Origin: Lancefieldella rimae ATCC 49626
GTDB taxonomy: Bacteria; Actinomycetota; Coriobacteriia; Coriobacteriales; Atopobiaceae
Assembly (NCBI RefSeq): GCF_000174015.1
Contig: NZ_ACFE01000002.1
Coordinates: 62,001 to 126,000, forward strand
Reading direction: 5' to 3'
Length of the DNA: 64,000 nt
Within the stretch, counting starts at the first letter, position 1. Every line of letters begins with the position of its first letter. Of the stretch, positions 6,073 to 17,833 are shown in pieces. The notes under the pieces were generated by a model. It did not search any database, was not told the origin of the DNA, and was given only the letters and a program-made list of their open reading frames with translations. The translations under genes and the position numbers were made by a program.

Positions 6073-6149
6073 GCAACTCTCGATAAAAACAACCACGCTA
6101 ACACAGTAGCACATATTGGCGTGACAAAGTGCGACAAAATGCGACAGGA

Positions 6150-6542
6150 TTAGTACTCCTTAAGCAAACGCTTGTACTGCCTGTATATTTCACGATTGAC
6201 TAAAACAATGTCTCTATCAGTCAAGGAATACTCATGGGCTCTTTTGAGAGCTTTACGAGCATCAGCAAGAGCATCTATCACCGGTAGAGCTTCATAGCCT
6301 ATCTTATCGCGGTCTCCCCAGCTAGACACATGGTTAATAATCCACTCGGCGTTGTCATCAAGTATCTTGGCCTCAAACTTGCGCTCGAGTAAATCAAGTG
6401 ATGTTGATATGCTTTCATACTCATCGCATAAATCGCGGTACTTGTCCTCGATATCCGTAAGCCGCTTGCTGATACACCAATCGGCAAATAGAATCGCCGT
6501 CATCTCAACAAGAACCACCACTGATAACACGGCATTAATCAT
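6150..6542 (-). CDS. Phage membrane-anchored coiled-coil protein, unknown
   Basis: A 130-residue protein with one N-terminal membrane segment (about residues 4-22, AVLSVVVLVEMTAILFADW) followed by a charged helical region that looks like a coiled coil (residues 25-60). No family recognised. Its ATG overlaps the stop of the upstream gene by four bases (ATGA type), as do the next four genes, so this is the last gene of a tightly coupled early operon. Confidence 0.6.
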   Translation of the reverse strand: MINAVLSVVVLVEMTAILFADWCISKRLTDIEDKYRDLCDEYESISTSLDLLERKFEAKILDDNAEWIINHVSSWGDRDKIGYEALPVIDALADARKALKRAHEYSLTDRDIVLVNREIYRQYKRLLKEY

Positions 6543-6742
6543 CTCAATTCCTCCTCATTATCCTTGAGCCATACATACATACAGCGCAGATCGTCTACCA
6601 CATCGGCAAGCCCTGAGCGCTGCACTCGTACCGAGACCGTGCCGACTGCATTACTCAGCGTGTAATAAGTGCTTGGTGCCGGTAGCCCCTCTATGTACTC
6701 TGTCGTAAAGGACAAGTGCATACACTCCGGTAACTCCGTCAT
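6539..6742 (-). CDS. Small phage protein, unknown
   Basis: A 67-residue product with an acidic C-terminal end (WLKDNEEELR). It looks like a small beta-rich fold followed by a helix. No family recognised. Four-base overlaps at both ends with its neighbours support that it is a real, translationally coupled gene. Confidence 0.55.
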   Translation of the reverse strand: MTELPECMHLSFTTEYIEGLPAPSTYYTLSNAVGTVSVRVQRSGLADVVDDLRCMYVWLKDNEEELR

Positions 6743-9003: not shown

Positions 9004-10209
9004 TTAAGGTGCAGAATTAAAGGTCTGTGTAACGCGCTTTGCGGCCGTCTCGAAAGCTTCTGCGGCGGCTCGGTCTCGTCCCGGAAGTACGTGTGCATAG
9101 ATCCTAAGTGTTGTTGCTTCGTCGGCGTGTCCCAAGCGCTCCGAGAGCGTCTTTAGATCCACGCCATTAGCAAGGCACCATGAAGCGTGCGTGTGCCGGA
9201 GCGTGTGGAAAGTAATGCCAGCAGGAAGCTCAAGAGAGCGCCTGAGAGCGGTAAACGCGCTTGATACCTTAGTAGGTCTCATAAACGCGCCTGTGACGCT
9301 TACAAGGGGTGTAGCGCCCTTTATAGCCACTCCCATACGCTTACCTTGCAGCTGTGAATACCTATCAATCAAAGCGAGGTCTGCGTCGGTGATGGAGACG
9401 TTTCTGTGACGTCTGCCCTTTGTCACGTCTCGACGGTACGGTTGGCGGCGTGGCTCCTCGATAACCGTGCCGGACACGTGAATATAGCGCTGCATGTGGT
9501 TTACATCTTGTCGGCGCAAGGCGCAGACCTCGCCGCAGCGCATACCGGTCTTTAAGGCAAGCCATGCCGCAAAGGCATAGACCGTCTCAAAGCTATACTC
9601 TTGAGCAGTAAAAGACTTATCCAGCACGCCTGTAATTGCTTTGTCTATCTCGGCAAAGCCCCACTCCTCCATCGAGACCGCCTCGTGTCGCTCTTGCGAT
9701 GGTTTAGCGACATTGAAAAGCGGGTTTATCGAGCAAATGCCGGAGGCAACAAAGTAGTTGTAGGCACTCCTTAGGAATTGGTGGACGTTGATAACAGTAT
9801 TGCGTGATAGCCCCGCTCCTCCGTCTTCTCGCGGTTTTAAGAGCTGCTGTTCAAATGCGGTAAAGTCCGCAGGTACAAGCGTGTCAACCGTGGCTCGTGG
9901 TAGATACTTTAAGATGTGGTTTTTGACAAAGCTTTGGTATTGTCTGATGGTGTTTGGGCTTGCGCCGTTGCGGCGCTTTAACTCCGTATACTCGCACAAA
10001 AGCTGCACCAGATTGGTACTCTTGACCTTGCCGTCGGCGGTAAGGTGAGCTGCCCACAGCTCGGCCATAGCCTGCGCTTCTTCTTCGGTTGTCGCTGCCG
10101 AAAAAGACGTGTAAGGCTGTATCAACTTGCCGCTAAAATCTCGCCCAAGATACAGACGGCAACACCATATTCCCTTAGCGTTACGCTTAACGATTGGTTT
10201 TAGCTGCAT
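9004..10209 (-). CDS. Tyrosine integrase (second, internal to the prophage)
   Basis: A 401-residue site-specific recombinase. The N-terminal arm-binding domain (1-60, AP2-like GIWCCRLYLGRDFSGK) is followed by a SAM-like core-binding domain (about 65-165) and the catalytic domain with Arg near 224 (TGMRCGEVCALR), His335-x-x-Arg338 (HTLRH), His361 (LGHAD) and Tyr371 (RIYAHV). All catalytic residues are present. It is of ordinary Tn916/lambda-Int-like length. It lies in the middle of the early genes, far from either prophage end, and is not the integrase next to the attachment fragment. The ribosome site is weak. Confidence 0.93.
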   Translation of the reverse strand: MQLKPIVKRNAKGIWCCRLYLGRDFSGKLIQPYTSFSAATTEEEAQAMAELWAAHLTADGKVKSTNLVQLLCEYTELKRRNGASPNTIRQYQSFVKNHILKYLPRATVDTLVPADFTAFEQQLLKPREDGGAGLSRNTVINVHQFLRSAYNYFVASGICSINPLFNVAKPSQERHEAVSMEEWGFAEIDKAITGVLDKSFTAQEYSFETVYAFAAWLALKTGMRCGEVCALRRQDVNHMQRYIHVSGTVIEEPRRQPYRRDVTKGRRHRNVSITDADLALIDRYSQLQGKRMGVAIKGATPLVSVTGAFMRPTKVSSAFTALRRSLELPAGITFHTLRHTHASWCLANGVDLKTLSERLGHADEATTLRIYAHVLPGRDRAAAEAFETAAKRVTQTFNSAP

Positions 10210-11003: not shown

Positions 11004-11540
11004 TTACGTCGCCAATGCAAATGTTTGATTGTCGATATAGTCCTCTGCCGGTAGAGCGGCTTGCTCTTGCGGCTCCCTCATAAAAAGTATCCAATGCGTC
11101 TTAGACGCTTTAGGGCGGCGATTACCGATGATTGGTTTTGCCGGACAAAGTGCCAGTACATCTTTAAGCGGGATATCACACTCGCACCACTTAAAGACAA
11201 GGACACCGTAGGGCTTGAGCACTCTCAGGCACTCGCGAAAGCCTTTGGCCAAGTCCTCGCGCCATGTGTGACTATCCAGGCTGCCGTAATAATCACTTCT
11301 CCAGCCGCGCTTACCGATAAGATGCGGCGGGTCAAAGATGACGAGGCTAAAACTTTCGTCCGGGAAAGGTAGCTCCCGGAAGTCGGCCACCATATCAGGG
11401 CTGACATCAAGCGTCCTGCCATTGAGAAGTACCGGATGTCGCGGATGTGCGTCGCACTTAAGTACGCGCGCATCCTCTTTGTCAAAGTAAAAACTACGTG
11501 GCCCGCAGGCCACGTCTAGGACTGGTGGTAAAGTCATCAT
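11004..11540 (-). CDS. Class I SAM-dependent methyltransferase (phage)
   Basis: About 178 residues. VLDVACGPRSFYFDKED gives a SAM-binding motif I, LKCDAHPRHPVLL motif II, and SLVIFDPPHLIGK the catalytic DPPH of an amino-group methyltransferase; GFRECLRVLKPYGVLVFKWCECD is the usual strand 5 region. DPPH points to N6-adenine or N4-cytosine DNA, but RNA or protein substrates cannot be excluded. An upstream in-frame extension lacks homology; ATG at 11540 follows GGTGAG and overlaps the previous stop (ATGA). Confidence 0.78.
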   Translation of the reverse strand: MMTLPPVLDVACGPRSFYFDKEDARVLKCDAHPRHPVLLNGRTLDVSPDMVADFRELPFPDESFSLVIFDPPHLIGKRGWRSDYYGSLDSHTWREDLAKGFRECLRVLKPYGVLVFKWCECDIPLKDVLALCPAKPIIGNRRPKASKTHWILFMREPQEQAALPAEDYIDNQTFALAT

Positions 11541-11899
11541 CTCACCGCCTGTATGATCTCTTGTACAAGCATGCCTTGCGGATGTAAGCACCAGCCGAGG
11601 GCACTGTTTGCAAAAATCAGGAGCGGCACAAAAAGGAAGATTACAGCTATCACACAAAACGCTATTGCTACCCCAAGACACTCCCGCTGTGGTCGGCTGC
11701 ATCGCTTATATAAGTGAGCGAGCAATACAAGAGCTACGACAAAAGCTGCTAAAAGGACGCCAAATACAGCTACTGCATAAATCGATTGCATGACTCTCAG
11801 TTGTGCATACTGCTCAATAGCTGATGCCGTGATGTCATAGGCTGTGCCGAGTCGCTTTGATAGCTCGTCAATGACTTTGGCAAGTATTTGGTCACTCAT
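11537..11899 (-). CDS. Phage membrane protein with two membrane spans
   Basis: A 120-residue protein with an N-terminal helical part (1-35) and two hydrophobic segments, about 40-62 (YAVAVFGVLLAAFVVALVLL) and 75-98 (VAIAFCVIAVIFLFVPLLIF). No family recognised. It overlaps both neighbours (8 and 4 bases) and is part of the early operon. A superinfection or holin-like role would be guesswork. Confidence 0.6.
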   Translation of the reverse strand: MSDQILAKVIDELSKRLGTAYDITASAIEQYAQLRVMQSIYAVAVFGVLLAAFVVALVLLAHLYKRCSRPQRECLGVAIAFCVIAVIFLFVPLLIFANSALGWCLHPQGMLVQEIIQAVR

Positions 11900-13500: not shown

Positions 13501-13679
13501 GCGCACTCCTCAGATTTGAGCTGCTTATAAAGCCAGCAAAGGCACACGGCTATAGCAGCAAAAATGGCTATCATCACCGCAAAAAACAGGCCATTTGGTA
13601 TATCGATACTCTCGACAATGCCCGGGATAAAAGCTGCACCAAAAATCACTATGCAGCCAATAAATCCGTCTCTAGTCAT
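13497..13679 (-). CDS. Small phage membrane protein
   Basis: About 60 residues from MTRDGFIGCIVIF with two hydrophobic segments (5-22 and 30-50) and a short basic-acidic tail. The ATG at 13679 overlaps the antirepressor stop. No family recognised. Confidence 0.5.
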   Translation of the reverse strand: MTRDGFIGCIVIFGAAFIPGIVESIDIPNGLFFAVMIAIFAAIAVCLCWLYKQLKSEECA

Positions 13680-14418
13680 CGATAACCACCTCCGCGCAGT
13701 AGCGGTCAACGAAATATGCCTGACCTTTTCCGGTTACAAGTGGAGTCTTTTGGATGGTCGTGCTACCGTCGGCATGGCCGATTACGGTCTCTTTGATACG
13801 GAATAGCCCCATATCCATGGCGCGCTGCGTCGGAACATTGCGCGAGCGGCCAAAGCTGCATAAATAGCCATCAGAGCGCAAGCGCTCAAATAGTCGGTTT
13901 TGCCCGATGTTAAGGCCGTTTTGGCGCATGATCTTAGCCAGAGAACCAACGAGAATGCAGCCATCAGATGCGGCTACTGCATCAGCAAAGCGAGCGCGTG
14001 GTGCCAGCTCCTCTATCTGCTGTTTTTGGCGCCGCATTGTCTCGTCTGCGATTTTAAGGGCGCGGGCGAGGATTACTTCGGGCGGCTCGTTGACTTCAGC
14101 AGCGATATATCCGCCGTCGCGATGTATCGCAGGTAGAACTTCATGCGTCACCCAGCGCTTATACGCCTTAGCCCCGGGCTTGCGAGACGATAAAACAAGC
14201 GACAAAAGCCCCGGAAGCGAAACAATAGTCATGTCCTGAGCACCGCCAACGGTGTGCGTTGAACGCACTGCCTTTTCGTCATCGTCTAGGCGGCGGGTAG
14301 CCGTCCTGTCCAAACCAAGAGAATCAGTAACATCTTTTGCCACAAACCACGGCTCACCGTTGATTGTAGTGGTACGCAACTGACCGAACTCGTCGCTTGT
14401 AAAAACTGTTAATGACAT
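13672..14418 (-). CDS. Phage antirepressor (BRO-N plus KilAC/ANT domains)
   Basis: A 248-residue protein with an N-terminal BRO-N domain (about 5-100: TINGEPWFVAKDVTDSLGL, YKRWVTHEVLPAIHRDGGYI) and a C-terminal KilAC/ANT domain (about 140-245: GSLAKIMRQNGLNIGQNRLF, VTGKGQAYFVDRY). Proteins with this architecture bind repressors or operators and favour lytic growth. It follows AGGAGGCGTGT and is the second gene of the rightmost early operon, after the excisionase-like gene. Confidence 0.92.
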   Translation of the reverse strand: MSLTVFTSDEFGQLRTTTINGEPWFVAKDVTDSLGLDRTATRRLDDDEKAVRSTHTVGGAQDMTIVSLPGLLSLVLSSRKPGAKAYKRWVTHEVLPAIHRDGGYIAAEVNEPPEVILARALKIADETMRRQKQQIEELAPRARFADAVAASDGCILVGSLAKIMRQNGLNIGQNRLFERLRSDGYLCSFGRSRNVPTQRAMDMGLFRIKETVIGHADGSTTIQKTPLVTGKGQAYFVDRYCAEVVIDD

Positions 14419-14880: not shown

Positions 14881-15078
14881 TTAATCAACATCAAGTGGCA
14901 AAAAAATATCGCTAACGCGAGTTCCAAGGAAATCGCATACAATTTTTGCTTGCTCAAATGTCATCTTTTCTTGATTTTTTTCATAGAACGAATAGGTTTG
15001 ACGAGATATTCCTAGTTTTGCGGCAACGGCAGACTGCTTGACGCCTTTTGCCTCTCTGTATTCTTTCAACCTTGGCAT
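14881..15078 (-). CDS. Cro-like XRE-family regulator
   Basis: A 65-residue single-domain helix-turn-helix protein: MPRLKEYREAKGVKQSAVAA then KLGISRQTYSFYEKNQ as the recognition region. It is divergently transcribed from the CI-type repressor, the classic position of Cro. A GGGGGC site lies four bases before the ATG. The C-terminal tail (TRVSDIFLPLDVD) is the usual end of this family. Confidence 0.9.
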   Translation of the reverse strand: MPRLKEYREAKGVKQSAVAAKLGISRQTYSFYEKNQEKMTFEQAKIVCDFLGTRVSDIFLPLDVD

Positions 15079-15183: not shown

Positions 15184-15837
15184 ATGTCACTCGCTTCAAA
15201 CATCAAGTATTACCGCCAGCGTGAAAACTTAACGCAAGAAGAACTCGCCGAGAAGGTTGACGTTGCACGCTCAACAGTTACTCAATGGGAGACCGGTTGG
15301 TCTCAACCAAGAATGGGGGCTATTCAGAGAATAGCTTCGGTGCTCAATGTTTCAGTTAGTGACCTTGTTGCCGACAGCATTTCCATGAATAGTACTTCTC
15401 GCCCTGCTGCTTCTATCACACCTACACCTTCAAGGGTTGCCTATGCGCCGCTGCTTGGTCGTGTGCATGCCGGAGACGCTCAAGAGCCCGTTATGCTTGA
15501 AGAGAAGATATCAGCTCCTTATGAAGTGATTCAGCACCGGCCTCACGCTTACTTCCTAGAGGTTGAGGGAATGTGTATGGGCAATGTATATCCTGAGGGC
15601 TGCTATGTTCTCGTAGACCCGGATGTAGTGCCGCAGAACGGCTCTATCGCCGTCGTGTCTATTGATGGAGCGGATTACGTTATGAGACGGATGTTTCGAG
15701 GTGCAAATACGCTCGTACTGTCGCCTGATACGTATGTGGAGGGTTTTGAGGATATTGTTGTGAGTAATCCGGATGATCATGAAGTGAAGTTCGCTGGAGC
15801 GGTTGTATGGTTCCAAGCGGCTAAGGAAATGGAGTAG
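15184..15837 (+). CDS. CI-type repressor with LexA/S24 fold (altered catalytic dyad)
   Basis: A 217-residue lysogeny repressor. Residues 1-62 form an XRE helix-turn-helix (QEELAEKVDVARSTVTQWE). Residues 85-215 form a LexA-like S24 domain with an Ala96-Gly97 pair at the expected cleavage site (GRVHAGD). The usual VEGDSM nucleophile motif reads VEGMCM, so Ser is replaced by Cys131, and the usual lysine position (YVMRRMF) carries Arg168. The fold is kept but self-cleavage may be lost or changed. It starts the plus-strand lysogeny operon, 13 bases before the exonuclease gene. Confidence 0.9.
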   Translation: MSLASNIKYYRQRENLTQEELAEKVDVARSTVTQWETGWSQPRMGAIQRIASVLNVSVSDLVADSISMNSTSRPAASITPTPSRVAYAPLLGRVHAGDAQEPVMLEEKISAPYEVIQHRPHAYFLEVEGMCMGNVYPEGCYVLVDPDVVPQNGSIAVVSIDGADYVMRRMFRGANTLVLSPDTYVEGFEDIVVSNPDDHEVKFAGAVVWFQAAKEME

Positions 15838-15850
15838 ATGGGGAGCATAG

Positions 15851-16606
15851 ATGGATAGAATGTTGAGCCGAGGTTCTAACTACTATAAGAGACTCCTTGC
15901 GATACCTGCAGAGAAAATCCTTTGCATAGATACAGAGACAACCGGACTTGACCCTAGAAAAGATGAGATCATACAGCTATCTATGATAGATGGTCATGGG
16001 AAGAGCATCTTTGAGTCGCTTATATGTCCGCCTACACGAAAAAGATGGCCTAATGCTCAAGAAATCAATGGCATTACACCTAAAATGGTTAAAGGAAAGC
16101 CGGAACTTGAAGAAGTTGCTGATCAGGTGCAGGAAGCTATAAATGCAGCCGATCTTATCGTTGGATACAACCTGCCTTTCGATATTTCTATGATGGAGGC
16201 AGAGGGCTTTGATTTCTCCGATAAAGAACAATACGATTTGATGGAAGACTATGCGCAGGTTTTTGGAAGATGGAGCAGCGCTAAAGATGATTATCTTTGG
16301 ACGAAGCTTACTACAGCAGCAAAGCACTATGGGATTAAGTTTGCCGCACATGATGCAGGGGAAGATGCGAGAGCAACTATAAAGCTCTTCTATGCAATGC
16401 TTTCCGATCCTGAGTTCATGGCGGCGGCTGTAGCTAAAGATAGAGCTTATGTGAAAATACAAAAAGAAACAGAGAGAGCCACTCAAGAACAAAAGGTACA
16501 AAAGACAACTTGTCTTATCGTAGTGATAATTTTGATGGTTTTCTTCGGAATAATTATTCTGAGTATTATATCTTGGCTCTCTTCCTGTGTTCGCTTGCTC
16601 GGGTAA
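15851..16606 (+). CDS. Membrane-anchored DEDDh 3'-5' exonuclease-like protein
   Basis: A 251-residue protein. Residues 20-195 form a DnaQ-like exonuclease: CIDTETTGLDPRKDEIIQLS (motif I, Asp/Glu), LIVGYNLPFDISMM (motif II Asp) and HDAGEDARATIKLFYAML (motif III, His then Asp). A charged linker leads to one strongly hydrophobic segment (about 219-243, CLIVVIILMVFFGIIILSI) at the C-terminus, so the nuclease would hang from the membrane on its cytoplasmic side. It is co-transcribed with the repressor (GGGGAG site) and thus expressed in the lysogen, which suggests an exclusion or defence role rather than replication. Confidence 0.82.
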   Translation: MDRMLSRGSNYYKRLLAIPAEKILCIDTETTGLDPRKDEIIQLSMIDGHGKSIFESLICPPTRKRWPNAQEINGITPKMVKGKPELEEVADQVQEAINAADLIVGYNLPFDISMMEAEGFDFSDKEQYDLMEDYAQVFGRWSSAKDDYLWTKLTTAAKHYGIKFAAHDAGEDARATIKLFYAMLSDPEFMAAAVAKDRAYVKIQKETERATQEQKVQKTTCLIVVIILMVFFGIIILSIISWLSSCVRLLG

Positions 16607-16621
16607 AGTTAGGGATACATT

Positions 16622-17689
16622 GTGTCTATTGACAAGCTCCCATCGGGTAAGTGGCGCGTTCGCGTTGAAATGGGACACGATAGCTCCGGCAAGAGGCTAC
16701 GTGCGCAAAGAGTAGTGCCAACAAAAAAAGAAGCAAAAGCTGTAGAGCATATGCTCTCTGAACTTCACAGAACTGATGCGCTCATTAGAGAGCGTATCAG
16801 GTTTGATGATTTTGTATGGCAGTATTATCTACCATACACGTCAGAAAGAGTGCGCTATACAACCCTAGCGGCCTATAAAAGAGACATTGGGCATCTTCTG
16901 CCCGCCTTTGGCCATATGATGGTCGACGAAATCGATAAAGTACACATACAGTCGCTTATAAACACTTCCAGCACGTATAAGGTTGCGAAGAACTCAAGGG
17001 ATTGTTTGCGGCAGATACTCAACTATGCCGTTGAACTTGGATTCATAAAAATCAATCCGGCAAGAGCAAAGTTTGATTTTCCTGCTCCTGAAATATATCC
17101 AGAAGAGCACAACGGAACTTGGCTAACGACATTCGAGCAACACGATCTATTTTTGGCCAAGATAGACCATCCAAGATTTAAGCTTGTCGCCGAACTCGGC
17201 CTGGGGCTTGGTCTGAGGCGTGGTGAAATCTTTGGACTGGATTGGGAGGATATAGACCTCGAGAAACGCATCGTCCACATTCAAAGGACGTATGCCCGCC
17301 AGGAGCACAAACACGAGTTAATGTCTCCTAAAACTAAAAAGAGCAACAGATATATTCCACTTAGAAAAGAACTGGCTTACTACCTATCCAAAGAATACGA
17401 GTTGAGGGGACATCCAACCGGTGCTGTAGTGGTTAGTCCTAATAAGAGACGATCAAATCCAGTTTCAACCTCACAGGGTTGGTTGAAATACTTACGAGAA
17501 AACAACCTTGAAGAGGTAAGTATCTTAAATATGCGTCATAGTTTCGCCACAGCTTGCATGAATGCCGGAATGGATGTTACAAAGGTTTCTAAGTTGCTCG
17601 GCCATACGAACATCACAACCACAGTGAGTAGGTATGTACGATACAAGCCCGAGGATATGGTGAAAGATTTTGACGCTCTTTTTGAATAA
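16622..17689 (+). CDS. int: Prophage tyrosine integrase (end of element)
   Basis: A 355-residue site-specific recombinase with GTG start after AGGG. It has an arm-type N-terminal domain (GKWRVRVEMGHDSSGKRLRA), a core-binding domain (60-155) and a catalytic domain with Arg near 200 (GLGLRRGEIFGLDW), Arg305 (LNMRHS), His328 (LGHTN) and Tyr338 (SRYVRY). The first His of the usual H-x-x-R is Leu302 here. It points towards, and lies about 100 bases from, a tRNA-Ser 3' fragment, so this is the enzyme that most likely inserted the prophage. Confidence 0.92.
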   Translation: MSIDKLPSGKWRVRVEMGHDSSGKRLRAQRVVPTKKEAKAVEHMLSELHRTDALIRERIRFDDFVWQYYLPYTSERVRYTTLAAYKRDIGHLLPAFGHMMVDEIDKVHIQSLINTSSTYKVAKNSRDCLRQILNYAVELGFIKINPARAKFDFPAPEIYPEEHNGTWLTTFEQHDLFLAKIDHPRFKLVAELGLGLGLRRGEIFGLDWEDIDLEKRIVHIQRTYARQEHKHELMSPKTKKSNRYIPLRKELAYYLSKEYELRGHPTGAVVVSPNKRRSNPVSTSQGWLKYLRENNLEEVSILNMRHSFATACMNAGMDVTKVSKLLGHTNITTTVSRYVRYKPEDMVKDFDALFE

Positions 17690-17795: not shown

Positions 17796-17822
17796 TTCGA
17801 ATCCCCAGCTCTCCGCCATTTT
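17796..17822 (+). other. Right attachment site: 3' end of tRNA-Ser
   Basis: TTCGAATCCCCA then GCTCTCC, G and CCA read as the T-loop and 3' T-stem, 3' acceptor strand, serine-type discriminator G and CCA of a tRNA-Ser. The bases before TTCGAAT do not pair with CCCCA, so the match to a tRNA starts here and this is a fragment, not a gene. Integrases commonly use such 3' tRNA segments; the whole tRNA-Ser would be at the other prophage end, left of the window. Confidence 0.78.
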
Positions 17823-17833
17823 AATTTCATGTG

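Follow-up and report, generated by a model that had tools for sequence, protein, structure and literature searches.

A predicted membrane-anchored DEDDh exonuclease lies between the repressor and integrase of a Lancefieldella rimae prophage and recurs in other temperate phages

We analyzed a 64,000-nucleotide stretch of Lancefieldella rimae ATCC 49626 (contig NZ_ACFE01000002.1, positions 62,001 to 126,000; hereafter the window), centering on a prophage gene for a DEDDh 3'-5' exonuclease with predicted activity and a predicted membrane anchor. The gene (15851..16606, + strand) has an ATG start and encodes 251 residues plus a stop, an open reading frame with exactly the boundaries that an earlier sequence-only reading of this DNA had assigned. 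Upstream lies the gene for a CI-type repressor with HTH_3 and Peptidase_S24 domains (15184..15837, +; Pfam 6e-15 and 4e-14; phrog_4, 9.5e-35), and downstream that for a tyrosine integrase (16622..17689, +; Phage_integrase, 2.2e-24; phrog_1, 5.3e-62); the three genes share the + strand and are separated by 14 bp and 16 bp, respectively. A divergent gene for a Cro-like helix-turn-helix (HTH) protein faces the repressor (14881..15078, −; HTH_3, 6.3e-13). The sequence-only reading had the exonuclease co-expressed with repressor and integrase: the operon order it described stands, and the shared expression is suggested by spacing alone, from which the three genes would probably be co-transcribed. 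Promoter-like sites were not above chance (6 found, 6.3 expected from shuffles), and no repeats were found in the divergent control region.

The exonuclease domain is readily identified. RNase_T matches residues 25-180 (5.2e-24; 86 bits against a cut-off of 24), with RNase_H_2 and DEDDh_C the only other Pfam matches; the best PADLOC model is the CRISPR-associated DEDDh family PDLC01247 (2e-35), and the best phage family is PHROG 192, “DNA polymerase exonuclease subunit” (4.3e-46), whose match is confined to the exonuclease portion (residues 19-195). The catalytic set (D-x-E, D, H-x4-D) is complete, its five members D27, E29, D111, H167 and D172 being invariant in 34 aligned sequences and encoded on the + strand at 15929..15937 (motif I, D27-x-E29), 16181..16183 (motif II, D111) and 16349..16366 (motif III, H167 to D172). 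An AlphaFold2 model with a mean predicted local distance difference test (pLDDT) score of 95.4 has the DEDDh domain followed by a single unbroken helix, residues 187-250, in which residues 187-221 (16409..16513, +) would form a helical stalk and residues 222-240 (16514..16570, +) a predicted transmembrane (TM) helix. Mean Kyte-Doolittle hydropathy of the latter is 3.49, a value attained by 1 of 20,000 shuffles of the same protein, which rules out a chance hydrophobic stretch. Fold matches of the model are led by DnaQ epsilon (Z 19.1, root-mean-square deviation 1.8 over 156 residues) and DinG (Z 18.9), and include the S. thermophilus DnaQ domain (17.7), the exonuclease Cap18 (16.1) and TREX1 (15.2). 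Both the DnaQ-like identity and the C-terminal membrane helix noted by the sequence-only reading are thus borne out, the helix as a prediction. The common fold does not demonstrate function. We ruled out a replicative or proofreading phage exonuclease, for which membrane helix and operon are unsuited: the name of PHROG 192 implies a replication role, whereas operon and anchor do not suggest one.

The element that carries the gene is a real prophage. An attachment (att) repeat of 31 bp marks its right end (17796..17826, +) and recurs exactly at C8:47116, outside the window, where the left copy overlaps the 3' end of tRNA-Ser(GCT); from this recurrence the prophage spans ~32.7 kb between att copies, and portal, terminase and head-protease genes are present. 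Four other species of the genus gave no match at the thresholds used, as expected for a phage-borne gene. A repeat script found no CRISPR array in the window, and the neighbors of the exonuclease are the repressor, the integrase and phage genes. The same att-bounded prophage holds a second tyrosine integrase gene in the opposite orientation (9004-10209, −; phrog_1, 3.9e-63), possibly part of a nested element. An antirepressor gene (13672-14418, −; phrog_130, 2e-80) lies in the early region, opposite the repressor operon, and a phage DNA methyltransferase gene is found at 11004-11702 (−; phrog_954, 1e-63).

We drew relatives from 140 genomes of the family, 297 genomes of the order, viral contigs and genome contigs; results from the two contig sets are the matches listed and hence minima, and frequencies among them are no population estimates. 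The order HTH repressor, exonuclease with C-terminal TM segment, integrase, all on one strand, is found in at least 11 distinct elements, with the TM segment in all 11: the window, L025 (= L180), L031, L034, L035, L041 (= L048), L045, L155 (= L186), L156, L158 and L185. The upstream gene matches HTH_3 above the Pfam cut-off in 10 of 10 tested; of ten downstream genes tested, six are serine recombinases by Pfam and four match the phrog_1 integrase. Computed intergenic gaps in the 11 elements lie between −345 and +90 bp, with strongly negative values a result of taking the first possible start codon, and many exonuclease-integrase gaps are below 100 bp. The C-terminal anchors themselves differ, being one helix, two helices or, in L154, a TM2 domain. 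L154 (6223-7251) is a fusion of the exonuclease to this membrane domain (PF05154, 7.8e-12), and no adjoining repressor or integrase was detected. Four exonucleases of ~400 residues (L030, L031, L034, L035) have in common a stretch at about residues 215-330 that separates the exonuclease from the TM segment; that of L031 has no Pfam match. Three further loci (L160, 5924-6772; L161, 6060-6932; L162, 5782-6627) encode two C-terminal TM helices behind a domain whose catalytic residues are altered, apparently dead exonucleases that retain the anchor; neither a repressor nor an integrase was detected alongside.

A second set of relatives carries the anchor mostly at the other end. A profile built from three lysogeny-operon members (L088, L205 and L100; the A4 scan) retrieved at least 76 viral loci, many with the exonuclease in the repressor-integrase position. 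Ten of these proteins have one or two N-terminal TM helices followed by a linker or charged stalk (L269-L273, L278, L281, L282, L286, L299), and five have an N-terminal, zinc-ribbon-like Cys cluster (L266, L267, L274, L276, L277); in L266, L269 and L273 one of the two neighbors is missing within the limits used. The exonuclease domains of the C-anchored and second sets are homologous (hhalign 100%, 5e-50). The model of L271 (pLDDT 93.5) has one helix of ~100 residues and then the DEDDh domain, so that TM segment, long helix and DEDDh domain are joined in the models of both designs, the C-anchored window protein and the N-anchored L271. In a tree from which 12 duplicate or truncated loci were left out by hand, together with rows below 75 bits or 120 aligned residues, the Coriobacteriia set is separate from a group made up of L088, L100, L205 and L176 (99/98), and L086 belongs to a third; L176, of the L088 group, has a C-terminal TM segment and an HTH gene 16 bp upstream. 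Because one group has its anchor at the C-terminus and other, separately supported groups have theirs at the N-terminus, we conclude that the anchor switches end between lineages while enzyme and operon place stay constant. At least 11 distinct C-anchored loci and this second, mostly N-anchored set rule out a lone oddity.

Searches with single sequences added little. A scan with the window protein alone returned the same prophage only from viral contigs and nothing from genome contigs, and scans with L086 alone or L088 alone gave mainly self-matches; no phage record covered 80% of the window protein in one place, and plasmid matches were distant. A match in a faecal contig was set aside as a PolC-like frame of 1469 residues. 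In the Clostridioides phages phiCD08011 and CD2301 a relative lies beside a gene annotated as a type III restriction enzyme; that of phiCD08011 has no membrane helix by eye. Lysogeny-type exonucleases also lie beside serine integrases in L294 (3-752), whose C-terminal tail is BRCT-like by eye, and L285 (4779-5834).

How closely anchor and operon go together was counted in a census of matches of at least 40 bits and 100 residues among those listed, which gave 272 loci, or 236 at 90% identity. A locus was assigned to the lysogeny class if the exonuclease gene was flanked, on its own strand, by an HTH gene upstream and a tyrosine or serine integrase gene at most 1.1 kb downstream; all TM calls, that of the window protein included, rest on hydropathy. 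Twenty-eight of the 236 non-redundant loci fall in this class, so that homologues are not confined to housekeeping loci, as the case against the sequence-only reading would have required. In 21 of the 28 there is a TM segment outside the exonuclease domain, and the pairing that the same reading proposed to look for in other lysogeny modules is present in many elements with unrelated integrases. Elsewhere TM segments were scored in none of 11 exonucleases encoded upstream of Cas genes and in 30 of 197 others; the enrichment in lysogeny operons (Fisher p 9e-11) is indicative only, as the sample is non-random and its rows are related. When the class is split by hand, 14 loci qualify without the A4 scan, 13 of them with a TM segment, and the A4 scan adds 14, of which 8 have one. 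Lysine and arginine are commoner on the exonuclease side of the TM segment in 18 of 21, a charge bias that would place the exonuclease domain in the cytoplasm. Of the 28 lysogeny copies, 26 keep every active-site residue, one exception being L276, a frame that ends early; among the other loci (the first 120 of the 197), 112 of 119 rows do so, reference included.

Soluble relatives from the same order occupy a different setting, directly upstream of cas3/cse1-type genes, at 14 or more loci by our own profile (L026-L029, L157, L165-L173); Cas3 and Cse1 were confirmed by Pfam in L026 only. CRISPR arrays lie in the fetched stretches of L037 and L027, and the L037 exonuclease (6094-6687) adjoins a long array. 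Passages in PMC10284694 describe type I-E systems in which DEDDh domains trim prespacers. One weakly supported tree group (80/59) contains both lysogeny and CRISPR copies; with such mixing of the groups and poor support for the deep branches, the tree gives no order of descent for the CRISPR and phage forms. Cas1 showed no clear link with the lysogeny form: 5 of 9 host genomes with that form have it, as do 55 of 140 genomes of the family. The L. rimae genome itself gave no match to Cas_CT1975, which we take to be the type I-E Cas7 family. Its only Cas1 match (C8:383820-384344, outside the window) has a stop inside the frame, and CRISPR adaptation may be broken in this strain.

Several known systems share parts of this design. 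SNIPE, in the passages of PMC13190303 that describe it, is a membrane-bound nuclease that cuts phage DNA during injection and leaves an induced prophage unharmed. The window protein would likewise hold a nuclease at the cytoplasmic face of the membrane through a single, predicted helix, and the site of genome entry would separate self from non-self. SNIPE, however, combines GIY-YIG and DUF4041, whereas the window protein is a DEDDh exonuclease with its anchor at the other end and a place in a lysogeny operon; since Pfam finds neither SNIPE domain in it, by domain content it is not a SNIPE. Lactococcal phages encode membrane-associated exclusion proteins between repressor and integrase, as set out in passages of PMC7693887, where Sie2009 is a small membrane-associated protein and Sie systems prevent DNA injection. 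The window gene has the same position in a temperate phage, and a predicted membrane-associated product, but this product bears a full nuclease domain. TREX1 has a C-terminal membrane anchor, and in the window protein too the DEDDh domain is followed by a predicted C-terminal membrane helix; the two share 16% identity in the structural alignment, however, and the window gene is a prokaryotic prophage gene. The TREX1 score lies below those of DnaQ, DinG and ExoX and is tied with those of RNase T and ISG20, and by this score the window protein appears no nearer to TREX1 than to other DEDDh enzymes. The CRISPR-associated DEDDh proteins (PADLOC DEDDh; the Cas2-DEDDh trimmer in passages of PMC10284694) have the same exonuclease domain; the prophage copies differ from them in having no adjoining Cas genes, a membrane anchor and a place in the lysogeny operon.

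We propose, with about an even chance of being right, that the protein is a 3'-5' exonuclease which the lysogen expresses and holds at the membrane, where it attacks the free ends of entering DNA and so acts in superinfection exclusion. It would be a tail-anchored inner-membrane protein, made in the lysogen together with repressor and integrase, that holds its DEDDh domain on a helical stalk in the cytoplasm. Its targets would be free 3' ends of DNA crossing or leaving the membrane, such as an injected linear phage genome before circularization. Placement and end-dependence would distinguish self from non-self, the circular chromosome and the integrated prophage being without free ends. 3' cohesive ends are common in Gram-positive phages, and a specific guess is that an incoming genome would lose them. 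Beyond what is established here (the domain, its intact active-site residues, the predicted anchor, the operon position, the recurrence and the lineage-dependent end of the anchor), we infer co-transcription, membrane insertion, nuclease activity, 3' DNA ends as substrate and protection, and with them the attack on incoming DNA that the sequence-only reading had suggested.

Several points weigh against this proposal. Enzymes of the DEDDh type have roles on RNA and in repair as well; the best PADLOC model for the exonuclease is the CRISPR-associated family, and the match to the PADLOC defence candidate PDC-S48 covers the exonuclease part and at most extends slightly past it. The census is not uniform either: 30 of the 197 exonucleases outside lysogeny operons also score a TM segment, and L299 has lost the active-site residues. 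Because 7 of the 28 lysogeny-operon copies have no detected TM segment, the membrane is not obligatory for these exonucleases; five of the seven (L205, L267, L274, L276, L277) start with the zinc-ribbon-like Cys cluster, and the zinc ribbon might replace the anchor.

The same anatomy would also suit a block on DNA uptake, mainly by natural transformation and perhaps of plasmids, in which the incoming single strand is degraded at the membrane, which would protect the prophage from being cured by recombination. In Gram-positive bacteria the transforming strand is taken up with its 3' end leading, and a ComEC-type channel (PF03772) is encoded in 9 of 9 host genomes tested; ComEC is, however, widespread (10 of 14 control genomes), so its presence says little, and we consider this account unlikely. 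Improbable, too, is a role in which the prophage is shielded from host immune systems, the enzyme clearing DNA fragments on which CRISPR spacer capture or nucleic-acid sensing would otherwise draw. TREX1 clears cytosolic DNA in mammals in this manner, and it has the common fold (Z 15.2) and the combination of exonuclease and C-terminal TM segment, but this fold match is common to many DEDDh enzymes. The prespacer trimming by DEDDh domains described in passages of PMC10284694, and the close soluble relatives that adjoin cas3-cse1-type genes, would fit such shielding; against it stand the lack of a clear link between Cas1 and the lysogeny form (5 of 9 against 55 of 140) and, in the L. rimae genome, the lack of a Cas_CT1975 match and the stop that interrupts the only Cas1 match.

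Operon position could instead reflect a partnership with the neighboring genes, the exonuclease processing DNA ends in integration or excision, or serving lysogenic repair or recombination, with an anchor that is incidental or keeps the enzyme off the chromosome. An integrase does lie at most 1.1 kb downstream in 28 of 28 loci, by the definition used, and less than 100 bp away in many, yet unrelated kinds of integrase, tyrosine and serine, follow the exonuclease, and neither kind is known to need one; the repeated gain of membrane anchors would also be hard to explain, and we assign this partnership a low probability. There is, lastly, a slim chance that the enzyme degrades RNA or short oligonucleotides, as a housekeeping-like or dinucleotide clean-up function carried by mobile elements. 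RNase T belongs to the DEDD fold, and passages of PMC11706625 place DEDD deoxydinucleases in genomic islands and prophages of Gram-positive bacteria. The nearest folds by Z, however, are the DnaQ proofreading domains, DinG and the S. thermophilus DnaQ domain, and the Pfam Rv2179c-like (exoribonuclease) match is limited to three N-terminal-TM relatives (L281, L282, L286) and absent from the window protein.

Returning to exclusion, we tentatively extend the proposal to a shared class in temperate phages of Coriobacteriia and other bacteria, a broader claim that we think possible and would sooner doubt than assert. Its members would be membrane-tethered DEDDh exonucleases between repressor and integrase, with interchangeable anchors (a C-terminal helix, or one or more N-terminal helices) and a zinc-ribbon version alongside. 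They would destroy the 3' ends of entering genomes, for example 3' cohesive ends, and so block circularization; they would be a counterpart of TREX1 in design; and their enzyme, common to CRISPR spacer-trimming nucleases, would have been exchanged between phages and CRISPR loci. We did not find the module described in the open-licence PubMed Central literature, a body of text with subscription papers and preprints largely outside it, and this is weak evidence of novelty.

Because the same arrangement recurs in other phages, it suggests an overlooked way for resident phages to keep rival DNA out. If true, an end-dependent, membrane-placed nuclease would join the few systems that recognize phage DNA by its site of entry, as a single-gene system that is easily tested. 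Phage exclusion genes and CRISPR-associated exonucleases would then be connected through one enzyme family. Many temperate phages would carry the system in their lysogeny operon, where it would shape which co-infections are possible.
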